A DNA stretch of 64,000 bases from Branchiostoma floridae (Eukaryota > Chordata > Leptocardii > Amphioxiformes > Branchiostomatidae). Under the pieces are notes generated by a model. That model ran no database searches. It was not told where the DNA came from and was given only the letters and a program-made list of their open reading frames with translations. The stretch lies in contig NC_049979.1 in NCBI RefSeq assembly GCF_000003815.2, positions 1,654,998-1,718,997 on the forward strand, given 5' to 3'. Positions 1,232-55,800 of the stretch are shown piece after piece (position 1 is the stretch's first letter; each line of letters starts with the position of its first letter). The position numbers and the translations under genes are program-made.

Positions 1232-3870
1232 GTAGGCTAATTTTTTTGTTTGTTTTTTTGTTATTAGGTTTGCTGACTACTCTCTCTTGGCAGCCAGGGG
1301 CTGAATTGTGAGGAGCTTACAATAGGCGGAGCTAAATCGCAAGTGTCTGGAGCGAGCTGCCATTTGGTGCAACTCAGGTGACCTCAATACGACAGTTATT
1401 GCCCCAGATGCGGCCAGGGACTGTAGGTTTTTGAACCACTCACACCGCACCATCACACGTGTGGCGGGTTCTTTATCGTGCTCGAGGTGTGGCTCTCCCC
1501 AAACACGGGACCTCCATTTAACGTCCTATCCGAGAGACGGCCCTAGCCGAACCTAGTCCTAACTAGTACTCATTAACAAAGTCATTAGAAACAATTTGTC
1601 ATGTTGAGCATATAGATTTGTCAGTCTGTCAATCAAGGACATCATATTGAAATCATTGAATCATTGACAAACCCATCAACTAGCATTTACCCATTTGTAT
1701 CATCACTTATTGGGACATAACACATATCCAACAAATGACAAGACATCACTCAAATAGGTAAGAAGAACAAATCATCACTGACAGTGACATCAATGTCTCA
1801 ATTTGCCTGACAGGTACCAGATGACACCAGGAAACAGCCGAACTTCGACCCCTCCACGACCCAGAGGGCGGACTACCTGCTGAAGGACGGGACCCCGCCT
1901 GGACAGACCAGACACGCCAGCAACCCTAACATTTCCCCAGCACATGGCATAGGTAAGAACCAGCAACCCCAACACTGTACCTGCACATGGCATAGGTAAG
2001 CATCACACACCAGCAACCCTAACACTGTACCTGCACATGGGATAGGTAAGGGTGGCACCATATATTCCTATTGTGTTCTGACAACGTTATGTTCAGTGGC
2101 ACCCCAACGTTTAACGACACCCTAACATAAGGGTGACAAACACGGGTATTATGTTATAGGTAAGAGCCAGCCTAGCCTGGTATCCAGCCATAATATAGTT
2201 CCTGAGTCTCTTCTCTCCTCTCCACAATTACGTAATTGTGGAGAGGAGAGAAGAGACTCGGGAACTATAGTATGGCTGGATACCAGGCTAGAGCCATCCA
2301 ACATGGGTTAACACTATAGTATCTGCCACCTGTTTTTTGTGGCAATATTTTGTATATCGACTGCTTGACAATTTAAAGTTTATATTCAACAGTTATGACA
2401 ATCATTAACAATAACATTGAAAAAAAATATATGTGCTGAGCTGTTCCTTTTGCTTCCAGCTCCCGTGACGTTTCTGCGCCCGCGGAGCGCGGAGGGGCCG
2501 CGGGTCCTGCTGGAACAGATCTCGTACCAACACCAGTACAACAGCAGGCTGGACCCCAACCAACCAATCAGGGCCAAGGTGAATACACTCTGTCAGACAG
2601 TCATGACTTCAAGTACCAGAGTTACCAACCTAGGATTGATGTGTTCAAAAATTTGTATTTTTCCAGAACTATCGTAGAGTGGAATTTGTTATCACCAAGT
2701 AGAGTAGGGGCCTCTTCTCTGGGTAGTTTTAAAGAACACTAACGTCTTGCAGATAGATGAGCAAAAGGTAGCTGTGACGTTCAGTGTAATATAACCAGCT
2801 GCTGCTGTGTCATGTGCCCCAGTTAAGAATCTTCATTGTAGTCTTTTAATATCGTATCTAAGAGCAAAGTTTTTAGCCTGGAAAGAACTTCAAATTCATA
2901 TGTTGTTCCTTCTCTGTCCCTACAGCGCCATGGCAGTTTTGTGTGGAGCAACTTGAAACCGTCCGTCCCGTCCGAGGTCACGTCAGAGGCCAGCTCGTCC
3001 CACGCCTCATCGCAGGAGGGTTCGCGCCGGTCGTCCGCCGCCCTGGAGGGGCCCAGAGAAGCCCTGGTGCCCGCGGAGGAGCCTGAGGGGAGACTAGAGG
3101 ACACCTGGCACCCGCAGACGCCTGGTGACCAGACTACAGAATCTCCTGCACCACAGGAGCCTAACGCATCCGTCCTTCCTGCACCCAAACCGAAAGCTCT
3201 GACACCGAAAGCCTCCAAACCGACGTCCATCATCCACTCCCCAGAGGCGAAACCTCAGGCAGGGAACGGGCGCTCCCCGGCGGGATCCAAGCCAGGTTCC
3301 GCCGGCGGGTTCTCCACGGGCTCGAAGCCTCTGTCGGCAGGCTCGCAGCATCCGTCCAGAGCGCCGTCAGCAAAGTCGCTCCAGTCCGCCCTAGCGGCCG
3401 GGATGCCGCAGCTGACCAGGGCTCCATCGGGGTCACAGGTCGTGTCGGGGTCACAGGTCGTGTCCGCCCCTACATCCAGGCGGTCGAGCGCCGGGTCCCT
3501 GAGGCCGCCGTCCGACCAGCTGGGCACGCCGGTCAGACTTCCGCCGGGCAAATCCATCCAGGACCTGCAGGGGCCGCTCAAGCTGCAGGTGCCGTCGGGA
3601 ACCACAGGTGAGCCGCAGGTGCCCGCACCTGTGACGTGTGCGTCACCTGGTGGAGCCACGTCGCACGGAGGCAGCCCCACTTCCAAGAGGAACATGACGC
3701 CCGTTGCCACGGAGGTGTTTGCGCCGGCGGATTTGTACCGTCCGATGAACTCCCGTCCCGAGAGCATGAAGTCGTCGCGGAGCAGTGGTCGGGGTTCGCG
3801 GAGAGCACGTGCTTCTCCTGGGTCCGTCCACGCGCAACCGATGTCCGACACACTGCCACCTGTCGGCTGA
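970..3870 (+). CDS. Unidentified chordate gene, last four coding exons (C2orf73-like?)
   Basis: Coding exons are 970-1231, 1814-1952, 2460-2578 and 2926-3870 (stop TGA). Each intron is GT-AG and the phases join cleanly (entry phase 2, then 0, 1, 0), giving about 487 residues; earlier exons lie left of the window. The first three exons carry the conserved-looking part: a proline-rich stretch, then RLINEP, a WWP motif, NFDPSTTQRADYLLKDG, HASNPN and EQISYQHQYNSR. The last exon opens with KRHGSFVW and becomes a Ser/Pro/Gly-rich low-complexity tail with a short internal repeat (SGSQVV twice). No membrane segment or enzyme motif is visible. The NFDP/RADY, HQYNSR and RHGSFVW pattern reminds me of vertebrate C2orf73-type uncharacterised proteins, or of axonemal microtubule-associated proteins, but this is memory only. 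That it is a gene is well supported; the name is not. Confidence 0.75.
1814..1952 (+). CDS. Unidentified gene, second visible exon
   Basis: The exon begins after GCCTGACAG and ends GGCATAG|GTAAG. It encodes VPDDTRKQPNFDPSTTQRAD and continues to HASNPNISPAHGI. Two further copies of its 3' end plus donor follow immediately in the intron. Confidence 0.7.
1914..2050 (+). repeat. Three tandem copies of an exon 3' end plus splice donor
   Basis: The real exon end GCACATGGCATAG|GTAAG (exon ends 1952) is followed by two copies ending at 1995 and 2045, each preceded by a CCAGCAACCC(T/C)AACA stretch. Reading on from the real donor in frame meets a stop just after the second copy, so copies two and three look like non-coding decoys. 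Confidence 0.85.
2173..2290. mobile_element. Palindromic MITE, TAGCCTGG termini, 9-bp target duplication
   Basis: The element is an almost perfect hairpin from TAGCCTGGTATCCAGCC to its reverse complement, centred near 2231. It is flanked by GAGCCAGCC and GAGCCATCC, a 9-bp target duplication with one mismatch. A 9-bp duplication suggests a Mutator-like foldback element; the superfamily call is inference. Relatives lie at 17602-17717 and 55005-55400. Confidence 0.8.
2460..2578 (+). CDS. Unidentified gene, third visible exon
   Basis: The acceptor TTTTGCTTCCAG precedes 2460 and the donor is AAG|GTGAAT. It encodes VTFLRPRSAEGPRVLLEQIS followed by YQHQYNSR. Phases match both neighbouring exons. 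Confidence 0.7.
2926..3870 (+). CDS. Unidentified gene, last exon
   Basis: The acceptor TCTCTGTCCCTACAG precedes 2926. The exon encodes 314 residues and a stop, starting RHGSFVWSNLKPS and continuing as a disordered Ser/Pro/Gly/Ala-rich tail. It is clearly GC-rich compared with the AT-rich flanks, as expected for coding sequence here. The opposite-strand frames over this exon are shadows. Confidence 0.72.
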   Translation, partial: RHGSFVWSNLKPSVPSEVTSEASSSHASSQEGSRRSSAALEGPREALVPAEEPEGRLEDTWHPQTPGDQTTESPAPQEPNASVLPAPKPKALTPKASKPTSIIHSPEAKPQAGNGRSPAGSKPGSAGGFSTGSKPLSAGSQHPSRAPSAKSLQSALAAGMPQLTRAPSGSQVVSGSQVVSAPTSRRSSAGSLRPPSDQLGTPVRLPPGKSIQDLQGPLKLQVPSGTTGEPQVPAPVTCASPGGATSHGGSPTSKRNMTPVATEVFAPADLYRPMNSRPESMKSSRSSGRGSRRARASPGSVHAQPMSDTLPPVG

Positions 3871-4400: not shown

Positions 4401-4976
4401 CGAGGGGCGTTCAATAAGTAATAACTCTGACCCACTTTCAGTTGTCTGATCTAGATGAAATTTTGCATGTGTAATGATACATATCCCCATAGTTTATGTT
4501 GCAAAAAAGAGCTCTGAACTAATTGTGGTTTCTGATTTACTGGTGTTTGAACTGAGTTAGGTGTGAAATGGACCAGGTGTGAAATGGAGCCAGTTGAGTG
4601 TCGCGCAGTGATCCGGTTTTTGTATTTGAAAGGACGCACACCAAAGGAGACTTTTGATGAAATGAAGGAAACTTATGGTGATGATGCCCCATCATATGAC
4701 CTTGTAAAACGCTGGCATCCTGAATTCAAACATGGCCGGAAGTCTGTGGAAACAGCTCCCAGACCTGGTCGTTCCTCCTATGCCATTGGTGAGGCATCTG
4801 TTGGAGGACCAACCTGGGGTGTCCTACAAAAACGGTGTCCAGAGCTGCATCAAACGATGGGAGAAATGCATAACTCTGGGTGGTTCCTATGAAGAGAAAG
4901 ACTAATAACTGCCAAGTTTCATTAATCTCCTGCTATGGGAAATGGGTCAGAGTTATTACTTATTGAACGCCCATCG
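4401..4976 (+). mobile_element. Internally deleted mariner-family element
   Basis: 33-bp terminal inverted repeats (4401-4433 and 4944-4976, one mismatch, core GGGCGTTCAATAAGTAATAA) are flanked by TA at 4399-4400 and 4977-4978, the signature of Tc1/mariner insertion. Inside, an open frame at 4563-4892 keeps a SETMAR/Mos1-type N-terminal helix-turn-helix region (RAVIRFLYLKG, APSYDLVKRW, HPEFKHGRKS, PRPGRSS). The catalytic DDD region is missing, so it is a non-autonomous deletion derivative. Confidence 0.88.
4563..4892 (+). pseudogene. Truncated mariner transposase (HTH part only)
   Basis: About 109 codons are open. The first 75 resemble the DNA-binding half of mariner transposases of the SETMAR/GVQW3 kind: an HTH with YGDDAPSYDLVKRWHPEF, then the PRPGR linker. 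The rest, downstream of AIGEASV, is out of register with the family and the catalytic domain is absent. It lies inside the inverted repeats of the 4401-4976 element. Confidence 0.8.
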
Positions 4977-6300: not shown

Positions 6301-7615
6301 GTATTACAATTAAATGACCTGAAATTTGGTATAGATAGGCATTAGATACTTGGTAACAAGATTCAAGTAAAATTTTTGACATAAACAACTTTAAAATGAT
6401 TAATTTTGGCACTTTTCTGAGGGGAAATTTGTTTTCTTTTGGCCTCCTGACGTGACCTTCCGTGACCCCGCACAGAGCCACACCTGTGCGCGTCAGCCGG
6501 AGAGTTAATTGAATCAAAGACCTAGCCAATCAGCGAAGAGGAGGCCAAAGGCTAATTAATATTCATAAGCGGGGCCTCATGATCCCGTATATAGCAGTGT
6601 TCCCGCCAGGGGGAGCGAAGCCCGCCTAAGGCTCTCGCATTTTAGACTATTCAGAAGGCTTTATATTGTATCACTTCTTAGGGGCATATCTATGATAATC
6701 GCAGCAGTCACTTAACTTCTCTTCAGGAGTTTAGCGTAACACTATTTCAGGTCAAACCGTCAAAGGCAACTAAAAACAAACTTTAACGTTACTGAGTTCA
6801 ACAGTACTTATAACTTGTTATCCGAAGTTGAAACGCTAGCGATGGTATTTTCGCTGCGCTGTTAGCTCCCTGCGACTGTTGTTGACGGTCTTATAACGGT
6901 ATATTTTGCACCCCTGTACCCTGGTATGAGTAACATTTGGTATAGATAGGCATAAGATAGTTGGTAAAATGATCCAAGTAAAATTTTTGGCATAAAGTAC
7001 TGTAAAAGGCTTAATTACAGCACTTTTTTTAGGGGAAATTGGTTTTCTTTCGTTCTCCATGCCATGACCTTTCGGACGTTCACCCCACAGAGCCGACATC
7101 TGCACCTGCGTCTAGCCGGCAGGAAGAGTTAATTCAATTAATGGTTCAGCCAATCAGCGAAGAGGAAAGCGAAGGCTAATTAATATTCATAAGCGGGACC
7201 ACACAATACGTTAACTTGAAGACTCAGGCCGTACAGACTTCTCGCCAGGATTTTTTCAAAGCGTCGGACAGGGGTCCGGGGGCCGCCGAATGTCCCAGGC
7301 GGGGTCCAGGGGCAGGGCCACTGTGGGGGGGACCCAGGTGGGCGAAGCCCCCCCCGGAAGCTCTTGCATTTTAGGCTATTGAGAAGGCTTCTTTTATCAG
7401 TTTTTTTAGGGCCATATCTACGATAATCGTAGCAGTCACTTACTTCTCTTCAGCAGTTTGACTTTAAAATATTTACCAAGCTCAACAGTATACAAAAATA
7501 TTGTACGGGTTGCCATCATTATTATTATTATTATTATTAGTTGAAGCGCTTATTTATAGCGCTAGTATCTTCGCTGCGCCGTTAGCCGCCGTGCGACTTT
7601 TGTTGACGGTCTGAT
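6293..7615. repeat. Diverged tandem duplication of a 0.6-0.7 kb unit
   Basis: Unit A (about 6293-6897) and unit B (about 6903-7612) share, in order: CCTGTACCCTGGTAT, a GGGGAAATTTG block, CAGCCAATCAGCGAAGAGG, GGCTAATTAATATTCATAAGC, a GCGAAGCC block with CTCTTGCATTTTAGGC, ATAATCG(T/C)AGCAGTCACTTA and GTTGACGGTCT. B carries extra GC-rich sequence at 7255-7355 and an (ATT)n run near 7520. The order suggests a dispersed transposon copied in tandem; the family is unknown. Confidence 0.75.
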
Positions 7616-9278: not shown

Positions 9279-12200
9279 CTGGGGAATAAAGATGAACATA
9301 GAACATCAGCACGGCACAAAATACCTTTTTTCTGCATATCCGCATCGGTGCAGGTAACATTGGAAATCACTTGCATCAGACAACATTTACCTGCACCACT
9401 CAGAATTTAGGAAGCATTGTTCGTACTAAAATCTGTTCAGAAACCAATGCCATTATTACTTTTAAACTACAGTACATAGGTCCGTAACAGTAACAGTCAA
9501 TGCAGGTAGTAAAAATAAAAAATACATAGTACATAAATATATAAACCCAGTACATGGACCAGTGTAGGTTAGGTTGAGGTAGACACCAGAAATACCTGCA
9601 CAGCTCCAATTTGTATAGCATCTTGATAAACTAAACTGAGCCACTGAACTTACGCTGCAGGGTTTGCAATGTTTCTTGGTGAAGTTCTCAATAAAAAAGA
9701 CAACAGCAGAGGAGGCTATGGCTGTTTTTGGACATCTAAACGGAGCCACCAAACTTGCGCTGCAGGGTTGGCAATGTTTCTTGGTGAAGTTCTCAATAAA
9801 AAAGAAAGCAGCAGAGGAGGCTATGGCTGTTTTTGGACTGTCTAAACTGAGCCACTAAACTTACGCTGCACAGTTTGCAATGTTTCTTGGTGAAGTTCTC
9901 AATAGAAAAGACAACAGCAGAGAAGGCTATGGCTGTTCTGAGACATCTGAACTGAGCCACCAAACTTACGCTGCAGGGTTCGCAATGTTCTTGGTGAAGT
10001 TCTCAATAGAAAAGACAGCAGCAGAGGAGGCTATGGCTGTTTTTTGGACATCTAAACTGAGCCACCAAACTTACGCTGCAGGGTTGGCAATGTTCTTGGT
10101 GAAGTTCTTGGTAGAGAAAAAAGCAACAGCAAAGTCACCATGGTTTTGGCTTGTATTTAGGCCTTTTTGATAAACTAAACTGAGCCACCAAACTTACGAT
10201 GCAGGGTTGGCGATGTTCTTGGTGAAGTTCTCAATAAAAAAGACAACAGCAGAGGAGGCTATGGCTGTTCTGAGACAGAAAGAAGGCAGAAAGAAAGCAA
10301 GGTCAGTTTTGGCTTGTTTTGGGGCCTTCTTCTCAGGCTCTCTAGTATGTCTAGTATCATGAGCCACCAAACTTACGCTGCAGGGTTGGCGATGTTCTTG
10401 GTGAAGTTCTCTGTTGAGAAGGCGGCCGCGGCAGGGTGCGTGCTGGTCTGCCCCAGGATGACCGTGTTGGCCAGGTCCAGACTCTGCTCCCAGGACAGCT
10501 GCAGGTCCGAGCACATGTTCAGGAAGATGTAGACCGCCAGCTCCGCCCACTTCTCACCCGTACGGATCAGACACTCTGGTGGAGAAAAAATGACAATGAC
10601 AATGAAGTTTATTGCATATTCATGCCCCCTTGGAGCTTAAATGCAGTAAGTCGCATACAAGGAGACTGATAGGTAAGCTATTCTATATTCTACTTATGTC
10701 TATATTTCTGTATATTTCTATATGCTTCTTCCCTCTTAAAACATGTAAAGACAAACTTACAGAGTTCTTCTATAAGGTTGTAGTTAGCTGATGAAAAAGG
10801 GAAATCTTTGATGTTTAACATTACAGATTCATAATCTGTCCTTAGAGTTGGGGTGACCCGGTTCTTTAAGCTAGCCACAACAGCCTGTGAAACTGGTGTG
10901 GCTCTACCAGCCATGCAGATACAGATACATAAAGTATATGGAAAGGTGGGATCCTTCGCCTTCCACTGTCTAAGCAAAAGGAGTCAAACCCGATAAGTCA
11001 GAATTTAGAGTCAGGTTTTGAACTACCGGGTAGAGTAAACATGCTAAGAGCGACAAACCTGTATTTATTATTCATGCCAAGGACGTTATATTAAATGATA
11101 GCATCCTTGGCTTGAGGCACAGGAACGTACCATCTGGTTGCGGAGGGAGGGGGCAGGTGAGGCTGGCAACCCGGCTGTCCTCCAGGCAGGAGCACACGTC
11201 CTTCGACACGTCCCAGCTGGCCTGGCCGTCGTCTCTCCAGCTCAACTCAGGCTTCAGCACGTTGGAAAATCTGAGCAGGAGATTTGAGGGAAAAAAGGTC
11301 AATCCTTTGGCCAGTAACATGAGAGATCGATCCATGACATAGATATGACGAGTGTCATGGGTTCTTCAACGTGCTCTCAAGCCTCGAACAGAAAACCGGT
11401 GTCTTAATGTTCCCTCTACAGGAACCGAGTCTGTAACCTCACCCTCACCCACCTGAACATCTCAGGATACAAAAATTCTTTATACTGGACAAACCAGGTG
11501 TTTATTGCCTACGACTCACTAAATTGTCGGCTGGGAATAAACACTTGGTTGTGTACAATGACATGCCAAAAAGCAGTTACTCAGACAACTGGATATGATT
11601 TTGGAAACGGTCAGACGTTTCAGCTAACGACTCCGCTATCTTCCATCAGTGACACTGACAAAAGATAACTGAGATTATCTAAAACATCTGACCGTTTCCA
11701 AAATCATATCCAGTTGTTTAAGTAATTTGTATTTGGTGTAGGTTACTACCTGGATGTCTATCCTTCATCAATGTGTGTGTGTGTGCAAAGATCTTTAACT
11801 TTTTATCCTGTGACTTACCAAATGAGGAAACTATTCCCCCACCTGAATATCTGTTTGAAGCGCGGGAGGGGCACCCCGATCACGAAGCTGTACACGGTGC
11901 AGTGGGCAGCGATGCGACCTTTTATGTCCTCCGCAACAACGTTCAGCTGTGAGGGCAGACAGCAGAGGAACAGCACGTCGCAGGAGGCCGCCACCCGCCG
12001 GTTGTCATAGAGACAGGTCACGCCCTGCTCCTCGAGTTTCACTGGTGGGGAGAGAATGTTTCCATCGTCAGACAACTGAAGGAGGTTGAAAACAAAATAT
12101 CTCTAGTAGCAGGCGGGAAAGAGGAGGAGTGCGCGAAGTTCAAACGTGTCTACAGTGTCATATTAGGCCGATCAATGTAGAAATTGACGTAAATCAACTT

Positions 12201-13315
12201 TTTAATGAGTAAACTGCTGGAAAATAATGAATTTCAGATCTTCTGATGCTTTTCTTTAACGTAGGTACGCGACCATTTTTCCATGATAGTTTTTGACTAC
12301 AGTCTATGGCACTACCACAAACTTAAAACCACCGCAAACACTCCATTTTAGATACCGCTAAAGTAAATCCCCGCGAACTTAAATGCATAATTCCATACCG
12401 AGTATTTCTGGTCTCCTGGTGGAGATGACCATCTCGTGTGGCTCCACGTCTCCGTAGGTCAGCAGGGCCTGCGCCAGCTGACCGCCCAGCCGCCCCCCGC
12501 CGATGATCCCCACACGGACGGGGTTCCTGGGCGGGGCCTGATGCAACAGGCGCGAACTCCTACTGTGCCGGCTCACCGGCGTCTGCAGTTCCACCACAAG
12601 CTGCCTGGGGGAGCAAATATCTGTCAGTTTTGATAGTATCAGATACTTTTGATAGTGGCCAATAATATTGTTTCAAAAAATGCTGTGACAACATACCAAT
12701 GTTTGTAGTTCCACCACCTGCTGCTAGGGGGAGATAGTCTGTTACTGTTAGTTTTTAGTCTCAAAAACTGCCAACTGTTCAAACATTTGTATCTTGTTAC
12801 TAATATAAGCTTTCCACTGCTGTAGGGATGTGGGTTTACCGGTTTTTACATTAAAGATAACATTAAAAAGTTCCCTAAATTCTGAATGTTGTAATTGTAC
12901 TAGTAGAAAGTTATTTGCGAATAATTCAAGTCAAAAAATGCATCCCCTTGCAGTTAAACATCTACACATAAAAGACAATTTGATTGAATGGCAGTTAGTG
13001 CTATCTATCATATCAATGGAAACTGTATATCTACAATTTAATTGGGATTTCGATGTCGCAAAACGTAAACCGTTAACGGCGCCCGTTATACCGTTAGTAG
13101 TACGTTAGTTAGTACCTTGCTTCGTTCAGGATGGCCACCAGATACGCGGCCTGCGCGCACGCGCACACCGTCAGGGCGTGTGAGCGGGCCCTCAGCACGA
13201 GCAGAGGTTTCTCGCCGTCTGTCAGCGCGCTCTCGAACTGCAGGGACGGCAGGTTGTTGGTGATATCCGCCACGGTAGGGATCAGGCCAGCAAAAATACT
13301 CTCCTGGGCCGCCAT
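9107..13315 (-). CDS. NOXRED1: NOXRED1 orthologue, P5CR-like oxidoreductase (complete, 6 exons)
   Basis: Exons on the minus strand, in order, are 13116-13315, 12399-12604, 11843-12041, 11131-11270, 10377-10575 and 9107-9278. All introns are GT-AG and the total is 1116 nt, exactly 371 codons plus stop; from memory the human protein is about 359 aa. A Rossmann dinucleotide motif VGIIGGGRLGG spans residues 98-108 (GGGRLG at 102-107), followed by VISTRRPE, as in pyrroline-5-carboxylate reductase-type NADP enzymes. Exon 3 carries a CDVLFLCCLPSQLN strand matching the family's cofactor-domain end. The C-terminal half is helical (EKWAELAVYIFLNMCSDLQL; SFENFTK-like region) and ends KQVKQKK. The substrate is unknown in any species, so a cytosolic oxidoreductase role is family inference. 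The start ATG sits in CAAAATGGCGGC. The gene is divergent from DUSP10. Confidence 0.92.
9340..9625. mobile_element. Fragment of the CAGGGCTCGAAATAC MITE family
   Basis: The internal sequence matches other family copies (AATTTAGGAAGCATTGTTCGT, CCCAGTACATGGACCAGTG, GACACCAGAAATACCTGCAC), but the CAGGG termini are not visible. It sits in NOXRED1 intron 5, between the last exon and the decoy-donor array. Confidence 0.7.
9640..10376 (-). repeat. Array of six decoy copies of NOXRED1 exon 5 3' end and donor
   Basis: Exon-end copies terminate at 9654, 9759, 9865, 9970, 10075 and 10198 (real end 10377), so the core period is about 105 bp. Each reads, on the minus strand, GAGAACTTCACCAAGAA, a short AACCCTGCAGC-like end and GTAAGT. 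The copy ending 9759 has GCAAGT. The three outer copies carry an extra T that breaks the frame; the inner three keep the FTKNIANP reading. Confidence 0.9.
10377..10575 (-). CDS. NOXRED1: NOXRED1 exon 5
   Basis: The acceptor is TTTTCTCCACCAG and the donor GCAGC|GTAAGT. It encodes ECLIRTGEKWAELAVYIFLN, then a Ser/Thr/Ala-rich segment ending ENFTKNIANPAA. Its last 40-60 bases plus the donor are repeated six times in the following intron. Confidence 0.88.
10580..11045. repeat. Dispersed repeats filling NOXRED1 intron 4
   Basis: The stretch containing AATGAAGTTTATTGCATAT and CCTCTTAAAACATGT recurs at about 62690-62810. The right part (AAAGGTGGGATCCTTCGCC and GGAGTCAAACCCGATAA) recurs at 24858-24960. 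On the minus strand the latter has a GGGTTCGACTCC-like box B, suggesting a tRNA-derived SINE fragment. Confidence 0.6.
11131..11270 (-). CDS. NOXRED1: NOXRED1 exon 4
   Basis: The acceptor is CCTGCTCAG and the donor AGATG|GTACGT. It encodes RFSNVLKPELSWRDDGQ to LPPQPD. Phases match exons 3 and 5. Confidence 0.85.
11573..11760. mobile_element. Inverted-repeat MITE in NOXRED1 intron 3
   Basis: Arms CAACTGGATATGATTTTGGA and its reverse complement flank a core with TCAGTGACACTGAC. Related sequence occurs at 31440-31510 and in the two halves 49470-49547 and 49901-49950. I cannot assign a superfamily. Confidence 0.65.
11843..12041 (-). CDS. NOXRED1: NOXRED1 exon 3
   Basis: The acceptor is CTCCCCACCAG and the donor TTCAG|GTGGGG. 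It encodes EEQGVTCLYDNRRVAASCDV followed by LFLCCLPSQL, the rest of the Rossmann fold. Confidence 0.88.
12286..12388. mobile_element. Partial TACTGTAAATGC-family MITE
   Basis: It shares CTACAGTCTATGGCACTACC, AACTTAAAACCACCGCAAA and CCCCGCGAACTTAAATGCAT with the copies at 14263, 42011 and 63075. It ends about 10 bp from the NOXRED1 exon 2 donor. Confidence 0.7.
12399..12604 (-). CDS. NOXRED1: NOXRED1 exon 2 (NADP-binding motif)
   Basis: The acceptor is CTCCCCCAG and the donor CTCG|GTATGG. It encodes the nucleotide-binding loop VGIIGGGRLGGQLAQALL and VISTRRPEIL. A TACTGTAAATGC-family fragment lies directly downstream in the intron (12286-12388). Confidence 0.9.
13116..13315 (-). CDS. NOXRED1: NOXRED1 exon 1
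   Basis: The exon starts MAAQESIFAGLIPTVADI and runs to ILNEA, with donor CAAG|GTACT. It gives 66 codons plus two bases. The ATG lies in a YY1/TISU-like CAAAATGGCGGC. Confidence 0.85.
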
Positions 13316-40800: not shown

Positions 40801-43800
40801 GATTGAATTTGCATATGCTGCAGCAGGAGAGCTGGGTAGAGGGCCGGAAGCCAGCCTGGGTCAGGAACCGTCGCGTGGCCCGGAGAATCTACACGAGGCT
40901 GCCGGAACCGAGCAGGACATGGACTTGGAGTCGGAAAGAGCCAGCCATTCCAGCCGGGGGTCCAACCAGGGGAGGGACCTGGGCGGGCTGGAGGGGGCCA
41001 GGGGGGGCCTCGGCGGGCCAGACGAGCCCAGGAGGGGCCGCGGCGGGCAGGAGGAGGCCAGGATGGGGTACGAGGAGAGGTACAGGAGCTACAGAGGAGG
41101 GGAGGAGGCTGACTATGGGGAACAGCCGTACCGTGGTTACGTAAGTCTGCCTTTTCTCTGTTTCACTTGCCGCTAAGGTGTGTTGCTTCGTGTTTTGTAG
41201 TACCACTAGGTAACTCAAACTGGAAAATGGTACCATGGGAAGATGTTTGCCACAGCTCTTGGGGGTATCTGTGAAGCATTTTCCCTCAAGTTATCTTTAA
41301 CAAAAATCTCAGTAACAAAGAAATAAACGTCTCTTCTGTTCATTGAATCACTGCATAACATTGTTCACAACCAGTACATAATCACCTGCTGATGTTTCTG
41401 TCACCTTCCTGAAGACAATACTGAATGGTTCAGCTTCACTCTGCAGCTGGGTGTCGCTTCTGCAATGTGAAGAATATGGTCCCAAATGTGACAGTTGGTC
41501 ACAGAAACATTGTCAGGTGATACTGGTTGCGTACTATGGTATGTTATTCCAAGGAGGTTATATAACCCCCATGGTTTTTCTAACAAACTGTTCTGTCCAC
41601 ATTGAACAAAGTCTTCTTCGTAACATAACCTTCTTTTAAACGTTTCGACGACCATCTGTCGCCTTCATCAGAAAAAAAATGTACTTATGAAGGCGACAGA
41701 TGGTCGTCGAAATGTTTACGGAAGAATTAAAAGAAGGTTGTGTAACGAAGAAGACTTTGCTCAATTGGTCTACCAACCTGATGAAATTATTTATGGATGT
41801 TTTGTCCACAGCAGGAAGACTACTACGAGGAGGAGAGCGTCAGAGACCCGTACGGTAGAGACCCGTACCGTGGGCGTGAGCAGGCGTATGGTGAAGATCG
41901 TGACTTCGGGGATCGGTACGAGGACCCGTACTACAGCAGAAGGGAGGAGTACAGGGAGGACTACCGGAGGGAGACTCCGTACTACGAGGCATGTGTTGTT
42001 CTTGTTATATTACTGTAAATGCATATAAGTTTGCGGGGATTTACTTTCGTGGTAGCGGAAAAATGGAGTGTTCACGATGGTTTTAAGTTTGCGGTAGACA
42101 AGCGTGGGCTTCAGTTGTGCATGGACTTACCCCATCCCCTCCGGGGCTTTGACGAGTGAAGTGAAGTGATAGACTGTAGTCACAAACTGTAATGGAAAAA
42201 TGTTCGCGGTGGTTTTAAGTTTGCGTTGAAGCGGCCACTGCAAAAGCAACGAAGATAAAATTAAAACCACAGCGAACATTTCTGTATTTACAGTATAGTG
42301 GTCTGTTTTTCATCATGAGGTCATGGAGGAGGTCAATACAAGACACCTTCAAGATATTTGTACATTTGTCTTGTCTATGGCTAGTTTCACTTGATGTACA
42401 TGTAGCTAAATGTACACACACACAAGGACTGGTACACACATAGGCATGCAGACGCACACATGTACGCACATTCACATGTACACAGACACACATGCAAACA
42501 CGAACACACACACATGCACAGACACACATGCATACACGCACGCACGCACGCACACACACACACGCACACAGACACACACAGTAACACGCACACACACGCA
42601 TGGGCACAGACACACACCTTGGGGCCAAGTAATTAGATATACCATGTGTATTAAATTTTTACTTCCATTTTCTGCAGGACGACAGGCCAGGTGAGAAGTA
42701 CAGAAGAGAAGAGCCCCTCCGGAGAGCAGAGGAGTACGGCTGGACGGATGACTACAGGAGGGCCGAGGTGTACGGGCGCGGGGAGGACTACCCCAGGGGT
42801 CGCCTGGAGAGGGACAGGGAGCCCCAGCCCCCCGGGGTGGACGACGCTTACCTGTACGAGCGACACGCCTACTCAGATGATCAGTACATGTTGGACAGGT
42901 GAGCAGGCATTTTAAGACATTGCAGTAATCTGTAAGGGATTGTATTCTGTCATTTCAGTTGGAATTTTACATGTTTGACCATCTCTGTGCTTTATTCCAG
43001 ACCTGCAGTTCGGGAAGACAGCCAGAGCCGTGGATTAGCTGGCCGAGTGGTGGAGTCCATCGATTATGGGCATGGAGAAAAAGGTCAGGAAACGAGCTAC
43101 AACTTATCGTACTTCTTGTACACTGCTATGTCAGGCAATGATAAAACCTTTGTTGTGTTACTTGTTTAAGATTTTGAAATTACCTATAGAATTTTAGATT
43201 TGAATCAATTCGGTAATGTTTTATTCAGTAATGCCCTCACCAAAATATTGAGTACACCTGAATTTTCCTTATTACACAGGCTTTAAACCAATAACCACAT
43301 GAAAACAATGGCATTTTACACTAATTCAAAGCACAATAATTGATTAAAAATCATTTCATTTCATTTGGGCAACTAGAGCAATGTTAGAATTTGTGCAGAA
43401 AATGCCTAAGTGTTCATGGTAAACTGGGTAATTACCTTGTTATTCCAGCCCAGGAGAGAGAGTAAGGCAGGTAATCAGGTTTTACTGATATTCTACTTAT
43501 ATTTTGATGTTGTGCACCTATTCTGAAACTTGCAGGTGGAGTCCGGATTTCTCTGTCGTGTCTGTAGCGCCAGGAAAACATTTACGTGTCAAAAGAGTAA
43601 TAGGAATTTAAGAAGTCAAACTGGTAGTCACAACTAGTGTGCTGCTGGTGAGAAGCTTTCATGTGGTATCTGCCATATTTCTTCAGCTCTGACTGAAGGG
43701 TCATGTGACCTGGGGGTTGGAGGTCACTGTCTCTCAGGTCACGTGACTGGAAGCCTTATAGAGGCATAAAAGTTTGAAATTAGGTCTTGCTTACATTTTC

Positions 43801-46800
43801 TTTTTGTCATATTCCAATACTTGTATATTGAGTCCTGTTTTCTGTGTCGTGTCTGTAGCGCCAGGAAAAGCATTCAGCCATCTGCTGACCACATCCCCCG
43901 CAGAGGCGGCCAGCAAGTCGTCCTTCAGCCACCTCCTGTCGGCCTCCGCTGGTACTGCACCCGAGGCTCCCGCCACCAGCCAGGGCGGGCTGTTCGCCAG
44001 GTATGTACTCTGTACCTGTAGTTATATAGCCAACTCCTGAACGTGATACCCTCTTAGAGTGTTTGTTTGTTTGTTTATTTCGATCTCCAATTACATGTAG
44101 TTTTGCTCAGTATTTTTATTGAGATGAACACTCCAACTTCTGTACCTGTATCTGTATAGCTGGTTTAACCGCCCTTCGGCGTGACACACCAGCCTCTTTG
44201 GCATTATGCACCAGCTTTAAGGCGCAACAGCAGCTGGCTATATGACACCGAATGGCCGTCACATATATATGTAACCTTTATTCATCTAGCTACAAGTATT
44301 GTTTAAAGCTTGGTGTACTTGGTCGGTGGCAATGAGTTCCAAGTTAACAATAATTGTTCCGCAAATCTATCTGTACATCATTTATAGTCTGCACATTTTC
44401 CCTCTCAGGTCGGGCATGGTAGGGTGTATGTGTGACATAACGGCTAGAGCGTTGGAATCAGAATCAGTAGGTCCTGAGTTCGATACTCGCCATGCCCCTG
44501 CCCCCATTATGGTGGAGTGACGCCCACCGAGCCTCACGGCTAATCTGTCTAAATGTGCCAAAAACACCTATGGATTTGGTGCGCCAGTGTGTCAATATCT
44601 GCACACTTGCCACTTACGTTACACCCGTGATTTTTTTTTCAGGTCAGGCATGGTTGAGGAGATAGACTACGGGCACGGGCAGCACGCTCCTCTCGGCCGA
44701 GAGGTCGGAACCGACACGTTCCTGCGAGAGCGCGGCGTCCTGGTCGGGCGGGCGGAGGAGGATCGCTTGTCCGGTCGGGGACTGGAAGGCGTGCCGCGGG
44801 AGAGGTCTGTATCTGTATCGATACAGCCGGTATAACCGCCCTTCGGTGGAACACACCAGCTTTGTTATCTGTATAGCTGGTATAACCATCCTTTTGTGTA
44901 ACACACCAGTACCTGTATCTGTAAAGTCGGCATTACCGCCCTTCGGCGTAACACACCAGCTTCTGTATCTGTATCTATATAGCCGGTATAACCGCCCTCC
45001 GGCATGACACACCAGCTTCACAGGCACGTTGCATGGCAGCAACTGGATATATTACACTGAACGATCCGTCACACCTAACTTTTGCACATCTATCTGCAAG
45101 CGTTCTTTAAAACTATCCAGAGAAGATTCCCCTACTATGCTTGGTGATAACAAATTCCACATAGTTCTTTTTTGAGCTGGTATTAGATACTTGTCAGTCG
45201 GTACGCCCACCAGTTAATTGGTCATTTTGTACATCATGCAAAGTCTGGACATTTTCCTTCAAACTGTCAGGTCGCGGGAACGGTCCAGGGATCGAACGTC
45301 GTTAGAGGAGGGCAGCAGGCGGGGCAGGAGCATCGAGGACGTGAGGCTTCCTCCTTCCCGAGAGCGGGAAGTTTCGCGGGAGAGGGACCGAGAGAGGAGC
45401 TGGGACAGGGACAGGGAGAGGAGCAGGGATCGAGAGAGGGATTTCGTGAGGGAGGGGGACTTACCCAGCCGTGCGCGGGAAAGGGACCTGCCCAGGGACG
45501 ACAGAGATCGAGCCAGAGGTACTCATGTCATACCCCCTTTACACTAGGACGGCGCTCTCACCACGCTCTCTCTGTGACCTTAACTTTGACATATCGCTCA
45601 ATGAATTGTATAGAAAAGAAACAAATATTTTTACACTTTCTGTGTTTTGTTGTCAAAAGGCACACTTTCACATTTTGTACGATATGACCAGTGTGAAAGC
45701 GAAGTATACACATATCCTATTTAGGTTGCAGTGAGAGCGCAGCATGATTGCTGTCTAGTGGAAAGGGGCCTTATAAAAAAAATCAAATTGGCCTGCTGGC
45801 TGCTTTTAACTGAGGTCAGGAGATAACAGATTTTCTGGTGTGATTGGATCATTTCAATCAGTCCTTTACACAGCTTGTACACTGTACTAAACATATAAAA
45901 GTAGACTGATCCCACTGTCCTGCGCACCGCCGTCAAACATAGAATGCAAAATAAAAATGTAAAAATACATACAGTCAACAACATGTAGCCACTCTCTCAT
46001 TAGTCAAATTGCTAACTGCCATGTTATCTACGGTTACTGTGTTAATGCTAATTTTAATGGACTGTCAAGACCTGTCTTTTGGGTGTTGTACCCTTTGGCT
46101 GTATGCTTTACAAACTAGCAGACAACATACCAAACTACATGCAAATGCAGCAACAGGATCGTAAGATATAGCTGAGAAACTACCACATGACCAACTACAA
46201 TACTCAGAGTCAGAGGTAGTAAACAAAATAACAAAAACTGTGACTGGATCTTTACCCAGGATTGGATGACCGCTATGACCGGTCGCGCCGCCGGGAAGCT
46301 GACGACCTTGACCGGTACCGGCTGGGGAGGGAGCGCGACGCTGACCGGGACAGGCTCTACCCCGAGACGTCATCGCTGTACCGAGACTACGATCGTGATA
46401 NNNNNNNNNNNNNNNNNNNNNNNNNNNNNNNNNNNNNNNNNNNNNNNNNNNNNNNNNNNNNNNNNNNNNNNNNNNNNNNNNNNNNNNNNNNNNNNNNNNN
46501 TGCATGATTTATTTTGTATCAAGTAATGTTCTACCTGAATGTTTAACCTACACGTATGTACTGGTCAAATTTAGAAAGCCAGTATATGTCAACCTCCTAA
46601 TGCCCGGTCCCCAACGGCATTAGCCTATGGGGCCCTGCTATCTCATGCCCTATCAGCAGTTATTATGATTGTCGCCACAACCAATCAGAGAATAGACTTT
46701 TCTTGGGCTTTTTGTTGTCGCAAGCTGTCTCGGGAAGCTATCAGCCAATCATGTTACTTATTACATGGTTCCATCCTCCTATGCCCGATCCCCAACGGCT

Positions 46801-49800
46801 GACTGCCCAAGTAGGGCGGTCCCTAACTGGTCTGAGTGCACAAGATAGCAGAAGTAAACACAAGGTGTTTTGACACGACTGTGGTCCCTCTGCATAGGAG
46901 AATGGTATATGTCAACTTACAAAATATATTTGATTGGAGCTGTAAGCCATGGCATAGCTGCCATTTTATTCTATGCTATTGAAAAAGCATTACGCTTCTT
47001 CTCAAGCATTACGCTTCCAGTTCATCTTGCTTTGGCATAATTAAGTCTTTTCTTTCAGCTGTTGCTCGATCTACTGTAAAGTAAAATGTCCATTACATGA
47101 GCATGCTACTCTCTAATGGCTCTATATATCATTTATTTCTGCTCCTACCTATAGCTATATTGCACATGTAGTTCCTTTAATGCTACATCAGCGCTCGAAA
47201 TGCTTTTTCTGCATAATAGGTGGCATTCAAAATTACATCACACAATTTTTACCTGCATACCTGCACAACTGGCTGCCTATCCCTTCAGTCAATTGAGTTT
47301 CAGTCAATACAAAAACATGGTGCCATCTAGTTTTCGTCAGTGGCACTGAAGTGATGTGGAAGAAACTGGTCTTTTACACCCTAACTTTGAATGAAGACAA
47401 TTTTAGCTGTCTTGGAGGTATTGTGTTTGAGGAGAGCCAGACCTTGAGCACGTTAAAAAGAACCCGCCACACTTACAAGAAAGAGAAGAGGTCCTTTCCA
47501 ACTTGAGTGTATCAACTAAATCTGCTCAGATATGCAGCTACTTTGGACCATTGCAGGTTAGCTACAGATTGACATCAAAAGTATGTCCACAACTTCCATT
47601 AACTACAATATATTTGTATGTGGTATTTCAGGGCCTGACAATGTACATGTCCAGGACTGGCGTAGCACTGGTGCAGCATTAAAAATTACCTGCACCAGAC
47701 AAATTGTACTTGCACCACTGTGAATTTAGGAAGTATGGATCATCGTAGTAAATTTGTTCAGGAACCATTGCTATTTTTTTCTTTTATTCTTCATAGCTGG
47801 TAACAGTCAATGCACATACACCTACATCATAAGACATTTATGTATAAAACCCAGTACATGGACCAGTGCAGGTTAGGTGCAAGAGACTCCAGAAATACCT
47901 GCACAGCTCCACTCTTACCTGCACTAACCTGCATATGCAGGTGGTATTTCAAGCCCTGATGTCCATCTCCATGTATTAAGCCTCTCTCTCCTTCCTCTGC
48001 CTCCCTCTGTCCCCAGTCCTCCAGTGGGGGCTGACTCCCCTTCTCAGGGATCCTCTCAGTCCACGTAAGTTCTTCCCCCACAACTTCTGTGTGCACGTCT
48101 TAAAAAAGGCAGATGCTTGTGTCTTTTCTGCTGCATAAGGCAAACTGGCTACTGCAGGAGTAACAGTCTTGTCAGTGTTTGGGGTTATGGCTTGTTCACA
48201 TTTGTCTGGCGATTATCCTACGACTGAAAACTTGTTGCCAAGTCCATCAGATACAGCTGTACCTGTGTCTCACGATTGCCGCACGACTGTCCTACAATGG
48301 CAAACAGCCTGCCAGGACGAATGTGACCAAGCTGCAATGTCTGATGTGCATGATGCAGTTGTCTGTTGATAAATGCAAGTACACACAGTATGCACAGGCT
48401 TTTTGGCATGCGGGTCCTCGTGCTCTTAACTTTGCCATACAGAAAGCATGACTGCTCTGTGATACAGCTGTGTTAAATCTATTGTACAAACCTGCGACGA
48501 TCTTTGCACCTCCAGGTTTGCTCCCCCTCTCCCACCCACATCACGCTACGAGAGAGATCCCTACACTCGCGAGAGGGAACACTACTACGACCGGCCGCCA
48601 TACGAGAGAGGAGCGTACGGCGGTGGCCCCCCTCCCCCCGGCCCTTACGATGTGCGAGACCCGTACGCGGCACCCCCGGGCCCCCCTCCCCAGCCGCCGC
48701 CCGAGGAGCCCAAACCTGAGACGGTGTCGGCTGAGGACATCCTGAAGGAGCCGGGCCGCAAGACCAGACCCAAACAGGTAAATAAATAGACAAACAAACA
48801 AACAAACAGGTACTGTAAACTTGGAAGTGTTTGCAAGACCAGACCCAAACAGGTACCGTAAACTTGGAAATGTTTGCAAGACCAGACCCAAACAGGTACT
48901 GTAAACTTGGAAATGTTTGCAAGACCAGACCCAAACAGGTACCGTAAACTTGGAAATGTTTGCAAGACCAGACCCAAACAGGTACCGTAAACTTGGAAAT
49001 GTTTGCAAGACCAGACCCAAACAGGTACCGTAAACTTGGAAATGTTTGCAAGACCAGACCCAAACAGGTACCGTAAACTTGGAAATGTTTGCAAAACCAG
49101 ACCCAAATATGTACCGTACACTTGGGAATGTCTGCGTGGGGTGATTTTCCACTTAACCCCAAAATTATGTGTATTTGTTTTGTTTTGTTTCTACCTTTAT
49201 TTAGCCTTGAGTACATGTTGATGCAAAGATAAATTTTCTTTTTATTACTACTGTACTATTGTTCCAATTACAAACTTGAGTTGAGGGACAGTAAAATTTT
49301 TCCCTCTTCCTTGGACTGCAAAATTAAGTCCCTGTAAAAATAAATGAATTGACAGTAATTTCATCTTTAGAGCTGATAGCTTGTAGAGAAGACTACTTAG
49401 TGATTTCTGAGATATGCAACATTTCTGTACAGGACCAAGAACTGAAAATGTACGCTGAAAATGTTGCCGAATTGCAATTACTCAAGCAACTAGATGTGAT
49501 TTGGAAATGGTCAGACATTTCAAGTAGTATCCACTACCTTTTGTCAGCAGGGCTCGAAATACTGGGTGCATGTGCACCCAGGTGCACCCAAAATTGGAGC
49601 TGTGCACCCAATTACTTTCTGTGGGTGCACAGGGTGCACCCAAATATTTTCTTAGGTTTATGTATGTAAAGATATCAAAGCATAATAGTATACATCATAT
49701 TCTTGACATTTTCTAAGTGTTAGAAAGATAATAAAATGTCTGTCATTGTACTTGTTTAAGAATTTGATAGCTCGAATTAAGTTTTATTATTAGGTTATTA

Positions 49801-52800
49801 CTTAAATTAAAGTGGTGCACCCAAAATTTTTTCGGTGCACCCAATTTTTTTAGCTGGGTGCACCAGTGCACCTAATCCCAAAAAGGAATTTTGAGCCCTG
49901 GTCAGTGACACTAACATTGTATCTTATTACCTGGATGTCTAACCTTTATTGACGTAGCTGAAAATGCAGGTGTAGATATTTACTGATGACACAATTTGTC
50001 TTTCGCCACATTTCAGCTTGTTGCAATCCTACGAGGTCCTCCCGGGTGTGGCAAAACCCATGTGGCAAGACTTATCAAAGTAAGATGTCTTTCTTTATCT
50101 TTTTTATTAAGCTGGAACAATGTAATGATCTCAATGAAAAGCGGCCTGTGGGCTGATTTGAGCTTTCATGAATAAACCAAGGTTCAAACAAAGAAACAAA
50201 TAAACCTGAATATATGTACAAAATAACAACATAAAGGTGCAGAAAAACTATTTGGTAATTTTCTCGCGAATCTGTGATGTTCTTCCCAGGAGAAGGAGAC
50301 AGAAGCCGGCGCCAGCGCACCTCGTATCTTCTCGTTAGATGACTACTTCATGACAGAGGTGGAGAAGACAGAGAAAGACCCTGAGACGGGCAGGAGGGTC
50401 AAGACCAAGGTGAGTCCTCTGTTCTGACGGGCTGAAGCCAAGGGTCAGGAGGAGAAAGGTTAACACTGCATTGTGTAGTCCCGAATCACAGAAAACACAT
50501 GTACATGCATGTACACTCTTATACACATACATACACACACACTCACACACACACACACAAGTTTCACACAGCATCCACTATCTTGAGTCACAGATAGAAG
50601 ATACAAAGTGGACGCACACACACTTATGCATACACAGACAGACAATCCAGGAAAAAAGGATTCTCATCTCCATGGTACTGGTGATGAAGCAGGCACAATT
50701 GTTCACACACACACACACAAACAGATAAGCAAGAAACAAACTTTCTATCTTCCCTGTAGGTTCTAGAGTATAAGTATGAGCCAGAGATGGAAGAGACTTA
50801 CCGCGCCATCAGAAACACAGATAGACACACACACATGCACACACAGACAATCCAGAAACAAATATCTTTCTCCCCTGCAGGTCCTAGAGTACGAGCATGA
50901 GCTTGAGATGAAAAGAGACTTACCGCACTATCAGAAACACACACAGACACACACATGTACAACATGACAGACAAACCATAAACAACCTTTCCCTCTCCCC
51001 TGCAGGTCCTAGACATACACACACACACACACAGACAGACAGACACACATATGTACAACATGACAGACAAACCATAAACAACCTTTCCCTCTCCCCTGCA
51101 GGTCCTAGACATACACACACACACACACAGACAGACAGACACACATATGTACAACATGACAGACAAACCATAAACAACCTTTCCCTCTCCCCTGCAGGTC
51201 CTAGAGTACGAGTATGAACCAGAGATGGAAGACACACACACACACACAGACACACATGCACACACACACACACACACACAGACACACACATGTACACACA
51301 AACAGAGAAGCAACAAACAACCTTTCCCTCTCCCCTGTAGGTCCTAGAGTATAAGTATGAGCCAGAGAAACACAGACAGACAGACACAGACACATACACA
51401 TAGACACCCACATGTACAACATGACAGACAATCCATAAACAAACTTTCCCTCTCCCCTGCAGGTGCTAGAGTACGAGTATGAGCCAGAGATGGAGGAGAC
51501 TTACCGCGCCACCAGAAACACACATAGACAGACACACAGACACAGACACACATGTACACACAGAGAAGCAACAACAACCTTTCCTTCTCCCCTGCAGGTC
51601 CTAGGGTACGAGTATGAACCAGGCATGGAAGAGACATGCCACGCCATCAGAAACACAGACACACACACAAACACACACACACACACAAACACACACAAAC
51701 ACACACACACACAAACACACACACAAACAAACAAAGAAGCAACAACAACCATTCCCCCTCCCCTGCAGGTCCTAGAGTACGAGTATGAGCTAGAGATGGA
51801 AGAGACTTACCGCGCCATCAGAAACACAGACACACACAAAAACAGAGAAGCAAGGAATAAACTTTCCCTCTGCCCTACAGGTGCTAGAGTACGAGTATGA
51901 GCCAGAGATGGAAGAGACTTACCGTGCCATTAGAAACACAGACAGACACACACATACACACACACGTACACACACACAAACAAAGAAGCAAAAACAACCT
52001 TTCCCTCTCCCCCGCAGGTGCTAGAGTACGAGTATGAGCCACAGATGAAAGAGACGTATCGTGCCACCAGAAACACAGACACACACACACACACACATGT
52101 AGTACACACAAATAAAGAAGCAACAACAACCTTTCCCTCTCCTGTGCAGGTGCTAGAGTACGAGTATGAACCAGAGATGGAAGAGACTTACCGCGCCAGC
52201 ATGCTCAAGGCCTTCAAGAAGAACTTAGACAACGGGTTCTTCCCCTTCATGATCGTGGATGCCGTCAACGACAAGGTCAAACACTTCCAGCCCTTCTGGA
52301 GCGCCGCCAAGAGCAAGGGCTTTGAGGTGTGTGTTTGGTAAATTTTGAAGTGTGTTCAGTTTTTTCCCTGATAGGAAAAAACATATTGTTTTTGCTGATG
52401 TGTTTTGTTGCTGTCTTGTTCCTCTTTGTCTGCCTGTAGCCAGACTACTGTTACTTTGGATATTACAAATGTAGCTGTAGATATGAGCCAATCAGAGCTT
52501 ACTTTGGATATTAGCTGTAGATATGAGCCAATCAGACCTTACTTTGGATATTAGCTGTAGATATGAGCCAATCAGAGCTTACTTTGGATATTAGCTGTAG
52601 ATATGAGCCAATCAGAGCTTACTTTGGATATTATCTGTAGATATGAGCCAATCAGAGCTTACTTTGGATATTAGCTGTAGATATGAGCCAATCAGAGCTT
52701 ACTTTGGATATTATCTGTAGATATGAGCCAATCAGAGCTTACTTTGGATATTAGCTGTAGATATGAGCCAATCAGAGCTTACTTTGGATATTATCTGTAG

Positions 52801-55800
52801 ATATGAGCCAATCAGAGCTTACTTTGGATATTAGCTGTAGATATGAGCCAATCAGAGCTTACTTTGGATATTATCTGTAGATATGAGCAATCTTTGCAGG
52901 GCTTTGAGGTGTGTGTTTGTATCTGGTAAATTTTGAGAGTGTTTGCAGTGGTTTTATTCTATGGAAAGATCTGTACTTTATCATGGAAGCTCATCTGTGT
53001 TGGTAGTAATCATAGTACAAAAGCTTAACTTGAATAAACCATTCATCATCATCATCTTCTTCCAACACATATCTCACGAGTTTACGGTCTGAAGTGATTG
53101 GCTGTGTTGATCCTGAAGAAGGCGACAGTGGTTGTTGAAAATTTGATCTGTGTGTACTGTTGTGTTGGTGGAAAGTTTACCTTTGTACTAAGATCTGTAC
53201 TTTGATTCATTACACTTTCGTTCTACCATGTAACAGACAGTAGAATCTAGGAGTAACTTTCTTGTACTCCGTTCTACTTTCAGGTGTACCTAGTTGAGCT
53301 GACTGCAGAGCCGCACGCCTGTGCCAGGAAGAACACCCACAAAAGGACACTGAAAGACATCACCAAGGTAAGAGATGCACTGGTTTCCCCTCGTCGATCA
53401 TTCTTCATCCTCATCTCATCATCTTCTCCCTCAGTCTGATAGTATTCATGTTCAGGTGTAACTAAGTTAGAGATGCACTGGTTTTCCTACGTCGATCATT
53501 CTTCATCCTCATCTCATCATCTCTCCCTCAGTCTAACTGATAGTTTTCATGTTCAGGTGTAACTAACTTAGAGATGCACTGGTTTTCCTACGTCGATCAT
53601 TCTTCATCCTCATCTCATCATCTTCTCCCTCAGTCTGATAGTATTCATGTTCAGGTGTAACTAACTTAGAGATGCACTGGTTTTCCTACGTCGATCATTC
53701 TTCATCCTCATCTCATCATCTTCTCCCTCAGTCTGATAGTATTCATGTTCAGGTGTAACTAAGTTAGAGATGCACTGGTTTTCCTACGTCGATCATTCTT
53801 CATCCTCATCTCATCATCTTCTCCCTCAGTCTGATAGTATTCATGTTCAGGTGTAACTAAGTTAGAGATGCACTGGTTTTCCTACGTCGATCATTCTTCA
53901 TCCTCATCTCATCATCTTCTCCCTCAGTCTGATAGTATTCATGTTCAGGTGTAACTAAGTTAGAGATGCACTGGTTTTCCTACGTCGATCATTCTTCATC
54001 CTCATCTCATCATCTTCTCCCTCAGTCTGATAGTATTCATGTTCAGGTGTAACTAAGTTAGAGATGCACTGGTTTTCCTACGTCGATCATTCTTCATCCT
54101 CATCTCATCATCTTCTCCCTCAGTCTGATAGTATTCATGTTCAGGTGTAACTAAGTTAGAGATGCACTGGTTTTCCTACGTCGATCATTCTTCATCATCA
54201 TCTCATCATCTATCCCTCAGTCTAAGTGATAGTACTCATGTTCAGGTGTACTAGTATCTAGGAGTAACTTAAAGATGCACTGGTTTCCTCATAATCATCT
54301 CATCTATCCCGAAGCCTAACTACTGTAATTCACTTTGTCTTCTCGGTACCTAACTTTCACGGTCTGAGGAAATTTAACTTGTTCTCTGTTCTAACTTAAT
54401 GTTCACTGTTGCAGCATCTGCACATTAAAAAAGTCTGTGAATTATTTGTTATCAGTAATGATAAGTTCACGCTACAGTCGTCACCGTGAAAACCGTGAAC
54501 ATAACAGTACATTGAAAAAAATCAGGAATTACAGTATTTGACTGTTAGGGCACCACTGAAGATCTGGCAACCAGTTTTCTGTGCTGTTTGATGTTCTTCT
54601 CCGTGTTTCACTTAGTGTCATGCTTATCCATTCTCTGATATTGTTCTCCCATCTTTTCCATTGCCCTACTTTTTTTTCTTGATATCATGATGATAGTTTC
54701 CCTTGTCCGAAAAATGGTGAAATGTGCCCATACCACTTTATAATCACTGTCACAAATGCTTTTCTTGATTTTGCTGGTGCTAGTATTTCATCTGAAATTA
54801 GACATGTACGTAGGAGTAAGGAAATTGTGCTTGCTGTTCATAAGGCAAATAGAATGGAGTACTAGTGAAAGTGTTCTCTGTTGCACAGATCCTGGACAGG
54901 TGGGAGTCGGCTCCTCGGCACATGATGAGGATGGATGTGCGGATGCTGCTGCAGGAGGCTGCCATTACAGAGGTACAGCACACGTCTGAAACATAGTCTG
55001 CCGGTAGCCTGGGTACCATCTTAAAAGAAGTTCGCTCTGGCATTCATTATATACTATATATACAGTCGCTTCTAGCTCTGACATTCATTATACACTATAT
55101 ACAGTCGCTTCTCTGTGTTTCCGTCTGGGAACGCGGACCATCTAAACGTCTGGAATCGTCCAAATTTTGGACGCAGGCGCTGATTGGTCCCTACACGGAA
55201 GCGAATTATGGAATAGGTTCATGCGCTCGTTTGAACAATCATTCTGTCCGCTTGTGGGAGGCCTGTTGTCATCGGAACAAGCGCTCTAGAACCCATTCCT
55301 TACTTTGCTCATTAACTGCAAAGCAGCAAAAGGTTTGAATGTGCAGGTCTCCAGACAGCGAACATAGGAGCAAACTACTATCCAGATGGTAACCAGGCTA
55401 GTCCACTGGCCATTATGACCACTTTTTGGTGGTCCCTTAGAAAATGTTCCCATTGACACATCCTATATTGACCCATGAGTAGTTTTCTTGGGCAGGTTTG
55501 ACTTCAAAGTGACTTTATAGACATGTAGCACAAGACCATTGGTCTGACTCTGAAATGTAAAACATACATACAGATTCTACACCATTGTAATTCCTCATAT
55601 GCTTACTTTGTGTGTCTGTGCTGTTGATATTGTGATTCATTTTGTTATGATGTTGTAGTGTTACTGTAGTGTACAATGATTAATATTGCTGCTACATTGT
55701 TTTGCTTCTTAAACATGTAAATCCCAGGACTACCTGAAAAAACAGGTCAATCTCCACCCGAGTTGTATTGGTTGAATAAATGAAGTGAAAGATTCAGTCA

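Follow-up and report, generated by a model that had tools for sequence, protein, structure and literature searches.

Copies of splice junctions within the introns of four neighboring amphioxus genes and their likeness to mirage minisatellites

The window considered here is a stretch of 64,000 nucleotides of Branchiostoma floridae DNA, in which segments straddling exon-intron boundaries recur inside the adjacent introns. Such copies raise the question of whether exon edges attract a duplication process of their own, or are crossed by duplications that arise without regard to them. Amphioxus minisatellites of this type, "mirages," have been described in single genes together with the idea that they lead to intron gain (accessible text of PMC3087553 and PMC3902484); both the mirages and that idea are known already, and what is added here is an estimate of density, a control with intron interiors, and a candidate exon of 51 bp in intron 3 of YLPM1. 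The copies are probably mirage-type minisatellites (probability roughly 0.7), that is, undirected local duplications, mostly tandem, that go unseen by selection when they cross an exon edge.

Gene models and copied junctions

The four genes of the window were rebuilt with a small splice and coding model and then by eye, which placed 57 splice junctions in the predicted models; the YLPM1 exon 17 donor was set by hand at 52326. Joined exons contain no internal stops (YLPM1 exons 1-12 and 14-20, NOXRED1 exons 3-7, DUSP10 exons 1-3, and CIMIP6 exons 1-4), and the least certain sites are the donors of YLPM1 exons 4 and 6. NOXRED1 exon 2, YLPM1 exon 13, and the 3' end of YLPM1 were not found in the rebuilt models; YLPM1 includes an assembly gap of 100 N at 46401-46500, where its missing exon 13 may lie. 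DUSP10 is securely identified (PDB match 2oud, E 1.3e-71; Rhodanese and DSPc domains), and the gene left without a name in the preliminary description is CIMIP6 (ciliary microtubule inner protein 6; Pfam CMIP6, E 2.7e-42). The remaining two genes carry their expected domains, F420_oxidored in NOXRED1 (4.3e-11) and AAA_33 in YLPM1 (5e-9); we take them to be NOXRED1 and YLPM1 from resemblance together with these domains. A PDB search with YLPM1 exons 14-20 gave no match.

A copy in the adjacent intron is present for 10/57 junctions: five donors and five acceptors, on both strands and in all four genes (CIMIP6 1/7, NOXRED1 2/10, DUSP10 1/4, and YLPM1 6/36). Eight of the 57 satisfy a strict definition, an ungapped local copy of at least 8 bp on both sides of the junction (score at least 16); these are the CIMIP6 exon 2 donor, NOXRED1 exon 3 acceptor, NOXRED1 exon 6 donor, DUSP10 exon 2 acceptor, and, in YLPM1, the exon 2 donor, exon 4 acceptor, exon 17 acceptor, and exon 17 donor. 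Two further junctions have short overhangs, the YLPM1 exon 9 acceptor (5 exon bp ungapped, 10 gapped) and the YLPM1 exon 14 donor (20 exon bp and 3 intron bp). The copied junctions, followed by one array that abuts a junction, are:

1912..2171, + strand: CIMIP6 exon 2 donor (1952/1953), two copies in tandem plus a partial one at 2151-2171
9623..10429, - strand: NOXRED1 exon 6 donor (10377/10376; exon 5 of the preliminary description), 6 copies of a unit of ~105 bp with about 35-59 exon bp and the donor
12563..12733, - strand: NOXRED1 exon 3 acceptor (12601/12600), one degraded copy at 12683-12733
24603..25079, + strand: DUSP10 exon 2 acceptor (25067/25068), one copy at 24644-24681 (12 exon bp), adjoining an intron duplication with an 80-bp offset at 24603-24719
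35673..36574, + strand: YLPM1 exon 2 donor (35755/35756), three copies in a 27/143-bp array, with as many as 83 exon bp
37378..37687, + strand: YLPM1 exon 4 acceptor (37627/37628), two copies of a 79-bp unit with 36 exon bp
43519..43869, + strand: YLPM1 exon 9 acceptor (43864/43865), one copy at 43519-43578
48758..49135, + strand: YLPM1 exon 14 donor (48777/48778), a 43-bp array holding 7 copies of 20 exon bp and GTA
50704..52201, + strand: YLPM1 exon 17 acceptor (52149/52150), 11 copies lying among CA repeats and including as many as 52 exon bp
52316..52936, + strand: YLPM1 exon 17 donor (52326/52327), one copy at 52898-52936, past a 40-bp intron array
53368..54319, + strand: 98-bp array that abuts the donor of YLPM1 exon 18 and is no copy of the junction

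The preliminary description had already placed such copies in all four genes, at both site types and on both strands. Nine of the ten junctions that it named stand; the YLPM1 exon 18 donor does not, its units having no more than about 6 exon bases, loosely matched, and lacking the AG/GT of the junction, and the NOXRED1 exon 3 acceptor had been missed. The tandem repetition that it ascribed to these segments is found at six of the ten junctions, where copies form arrays (CIMIP6 with 3 copies found, NOXRED1 exon 6 with 6, YLPM1 exon 2 with 3, exon 4 with 2, exon 14 with 7, and the exon 17 acceptor with 11), whereas the other four have single displaced copies.

Several further sites were considered and left uncounted. 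At the donors of YLPM1 exons 9 and 10 the repeats are confined to the intron side; the YLPM1 exon 10 acceptor has a mere 12-base match with one mismatch, and the NOXRED1 exon 4 donor appears at the score-14 threshold only.

Junctions compared with exon and intron interiors

Repeat pairs with a score of at least 16 number 404 in the real window and 1 to 5 in each of five Markov-shuffled windows; low-complexity pairs were set aside, a filter that at score 18 reduces 1077 pairs to 361. For the comparison of junctions with other points, the 60 bp around each point were aligned with gaps to the intron, and a match was required to span the center by 8 bp; 55 of the 56 intron ends were scored, the one filtered out being presumably the end at the N gap. 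At score 16, copies are found for 9/55 junctions, 6/617 exon-interior points, 1/1100 points with shuffled introns, and 275/1042 intron-interior points, the last count being inflated because one array covers many bases. At score 22 the corresponding figures are 9/55, 5/617, 0/1100, and 242/1042, and the ungapped repeat scan places 27% of intron-interior points within local repeats. Copies of junctions are far commoner than copies of exon interiors, in keeping with the preliminary description; base for base, junctions are no hotter than intron interiors. Given this intron control, the copies in this window can be accounted for without a special junction mechanism.

The junction lies between 8% and 89% of the way along the copied segment, with no preferred position; its distribution fits a uniform one (KS p 0.51, 10 events, copy extents entered by hand). 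Repeats within exons are offset by multiples of three in 26/28 pairs, while intron-intron offsets under 300 bp leave remainders 0/1/2 in 52/39/38 pairs and exon-intron offsets in 18/10/14, the pairs not being independent in any of the three sets. This frame bias of exon repeats, combined with uniform geometry, is expected from undirected tandem duplication with coding-frame selection. Every one of the 42 exon-to-intron repeat pairs traces to one of nine junction events or to a single copy of the interior of YLPM1 exon 3, which is also matched by a related stretch of exon 4; the tenth junction event, the copy of YLPM1 exon 9, falls outside these pairs because it has too few exon bases.

Duplications would arise irrespective of the junction. 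Exon-internal ones would be removed unless in frame, and intron-internal ones would stay; those that cross an exon edge would stay as well, leaving the message unchanged, because their copies come to lie in the intron and splicing holds to the exon-proximal donor or acceptor, presumably the site in use. Once retained, edge-crossing duplications would be amplified and scrambled like other minisatellites. The location of the copies in the adjacent intron, the reading frame maintained across the genuine sites, and the wealth of repeats in the introns favor this explanation. Counting against it are an excess of junction-spanning events, considered below, the four of ten junctions with single displaced copies, and a richness of third-position differences that plain neutral decay does not predict: differences among copies number 12, 12, and 27 at codon positions 1, 2, and 3 (27/51 at position 3, P 0.003). 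Perhaps sequence continues to be exchanged between the arrays and the real exon.

The preliminary description had likened the copies to amphioxus mirages, and the comparison fits, as the units span the exon-intron boundary at 10/57 junctions. The mirages of Adh3, the globins BflGb6 and BflGb9, and troponin C are, in the accessible accounts, likewise mostly tandem duplications spanning a 5' or 3' exon-intron boundary; they share with the copies in the window the splice signals carried and a variable unit length, and single duplicates are known there too (BflGb9). Of the ten cases here, 6/10 are arrays and 4/10 single copies. Mirages of Adh3, TnC, and globin genes are reported not to disturb splicing (PMC3087553 and PMC3902484, accessible text), and in the window the genuine exons stay in frame in the predicted models. 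In contrast to these accounts of single genes, the copies here involve 10/57 junctions in four neighboring genes and are known from one sequence. Lancelet PGBD5 offers a further parallel, in that its 60-bp and 108-bp repeats are imperfect repeats at 5' and 3' splice sites; the PGBD5 repeats were checked against reads (PMC3902484), whereas the arrays in the window are seen in the assembly. No genome-wide count of such junction copies is among the literature matches listed, which is weak evidence of absence with most subscription papers outside the search; the accessible part of PMC5896119 has nothing on mirages.

A candidate exon in YLPM1 intron 3

Some copies may become real exons or new introns by way of mirages, a tentative proposal that is compatible with undirected duplication and for which one copy in YLPM1 could represent the end point:

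37201..37251, + strand: YLPM1 candidate exon 3b, 51 bp, phase 0/0, part of the copy at 37196-37251 of the exon 3 interior at 37061-37116

The copy at 37196-37251 is the sole event whose copied exon stretch misses the junction, by 24 bp. It differs from exon 3 at 6/56 bases, all of them third codon positions and synonymous, with no indel; the homology stops at GAG/GT, and an AG lies just before 37201. The chance of differences falling in third positions throughout is 0.0008 to 0.017 depending on the model, uncorrected for the approximately ten events examined. Against this stand weak predicted splice sites: the acceptor scores -1.2, compared with 4.0 for exon 3 and 5.1 for exon 4, and the donor 1.4, compared with 5.2 for exon 3. 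It is therefore possible, though doubtful on these sequence features, that candidate exon 3b is a real exon. A similar route was proposed by Ebner et al. (accessible text of PMC3087553), and a predicted exon inside the PGBD5 repeats, described in the accessible text of PMC3902484, is comparable to exon 3b. The YLPM1 exon 2 copies are not claimed as extra exons; all 6 of their exon mismatches are at codon position 3, but mostly in changeable CAA/CAG runs.

The preliminary description had also seen in the copies intron gain caught midway. In the gain of introns by tandem duplication at AGGT sites (ATP2A1, potato RdRp), duplicated coding or boundary DNA supplies the splice signals, as it does here; in that model, however, the new intron is bounded by the AGGT sites, whereas junctions in the window occupy no favored position within the unit. 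Judged indirectly from this uniform position, duplicated AGGT sites do not serve as ends of new introns, and what is left of the suggestion is one candidate gained exon, 3b. Should roughly one junction in six have spare splice sites, the proportion seen in this window, the genome would provide a natural experiment on site choice among equals; at that density, it would also be somewhere to search for nascent exons or introns.

Junction-directed duplication, decoy sites, and assembly

A mutational process directed at junctions, such as breakage or slippage starting from AGGT or close to splice sites, would favor exon edges themselves. This was assessed with founding events, for which clusters of repeats were collapsed to one event each, giving 27 events, with events and unit lengths set by hand; clusters 35154/35191, 47544/47593, and 44009-45033 were taken as one event each, 37060-37687 was split in two, and the count omits two repeat pairs (12268, 12353) that connect a NOXRED1 intron with flanking DNA. 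Eight events span a junction against 3.45 expected under random placement in their own introns (P 0.010), or 10 against 4.28 by a looser count (P 0.0033). The excess is similar for the 22 events with units of at least 30 bp (8 against 3.35, P 0.008; looser count 10 against 4.06, P 0.002) and under window-wide placement (8 against 2.53, P 0.002; looser count 10 against 3.24, P 0.001). Donors and acceptors on both strands are affected, as a directed process would have it. The excess fades, however, if the founding units had 1.5 or 2 times the length that can still be aligned (P 0.13 or 0.42; looser count 0.051 or 0.21), and the position of the junction anywhere in the unit, together with the higher score of intron-interior points, argues against direction. 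Moreover, a junction copy retains a conserved partner for its exon half, so old junction copies should remain detectable for longer, and the modest excess may arise without any directed process. Seeding at junctions or AGGT, as first suggested, thus gains no support from the intron interiors, the junction positions, or the fading excess, and is unlikely. It is improbable, too, that exon edges in this genome are true hotspots of tandem duplication, at roughly two to three times the level of introns; if exon 3b were real as well, such duplicates would be giving rise to exons at present.

Retention of decoy splice sites by selection had been offered in the preliminary description as another explanation; such sites might, for instance, regulate splicing of the host gene. 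GT or AG is kept in 35/36 copies, the remaining one having GC, and the pooled mismatch is 1/72 at bases of the dinucleotide against 176/1781 at other bases (Fisher P 0.012, copies not independent). Bases beside the donor are kept about as well, however: within 10 bases of it each position differs in only 0-2 of 9-20 copies, compared with 1/40 for GT itself, and near the acceptor most columns are likewise well kept, apart from three with differences in 10-12 of 15-16 copies. Across the copies, any preferential loss or retention of GT/AG therefore cannot be told apart from that of neighboring bases. Single-base indels in 3/6 NOXRED1 exon 6 copies and a stop in 1/2 YLPM1 exon 4 copies also speak against selection, which is very unlikely to explain the decoys.

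By a generic matrix, 26/36 decoys fall short of the genuine site by 1 unit at most, the seven YLPM1 exon 14 decoys being lower; the splice matrices are approximate. With scores so near those of genuine sites, position rather than strength would decide at most sites if splicing is normal.

That the arrays are assembly artefacts is least likely of all, in spite of the N gap, the 98-100% identity of the YLPM1 exon 14 copies (6/7 compared), whose number is less safe, a globin mirage misassembled in the draft genome (PMC3087553, accessible text), and PGBD5 repeat numbers that differ between two assemblies, because in two of the four arrays compared pairwise identity falls as low as 59% (NOXRED1 exon 6, 59-93%, 6 copies) and 64% (YLPM1 exon 17 acceptor, 64-90%, 6/11 compared), unlike what duplicated assembly gives, and the PGBD5 repeats are supported by re-examined Sanger and Illumina data (PMC3902484, accessible text).

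The window contains other repeats of varied kinds. YLPM1 exon 4 includes several coding tandem repeats at 38017-39770, with periods such as 39, 45, and 90 bp, and a chain of repeat pairs at 6501-7616, with offsets of ~620-730 bp, represents a larger decayed duplication. An open frame at 4551-4889 encodes a Mos1-type transposase helix-turn-helix domain (HTH_48, E 9.3e-10). In CIMIP6 intron 2, a directly abutting 60-nt inverted repeat, 97% complementary, occupies 2172-2291, right after the last partial mirage copy.
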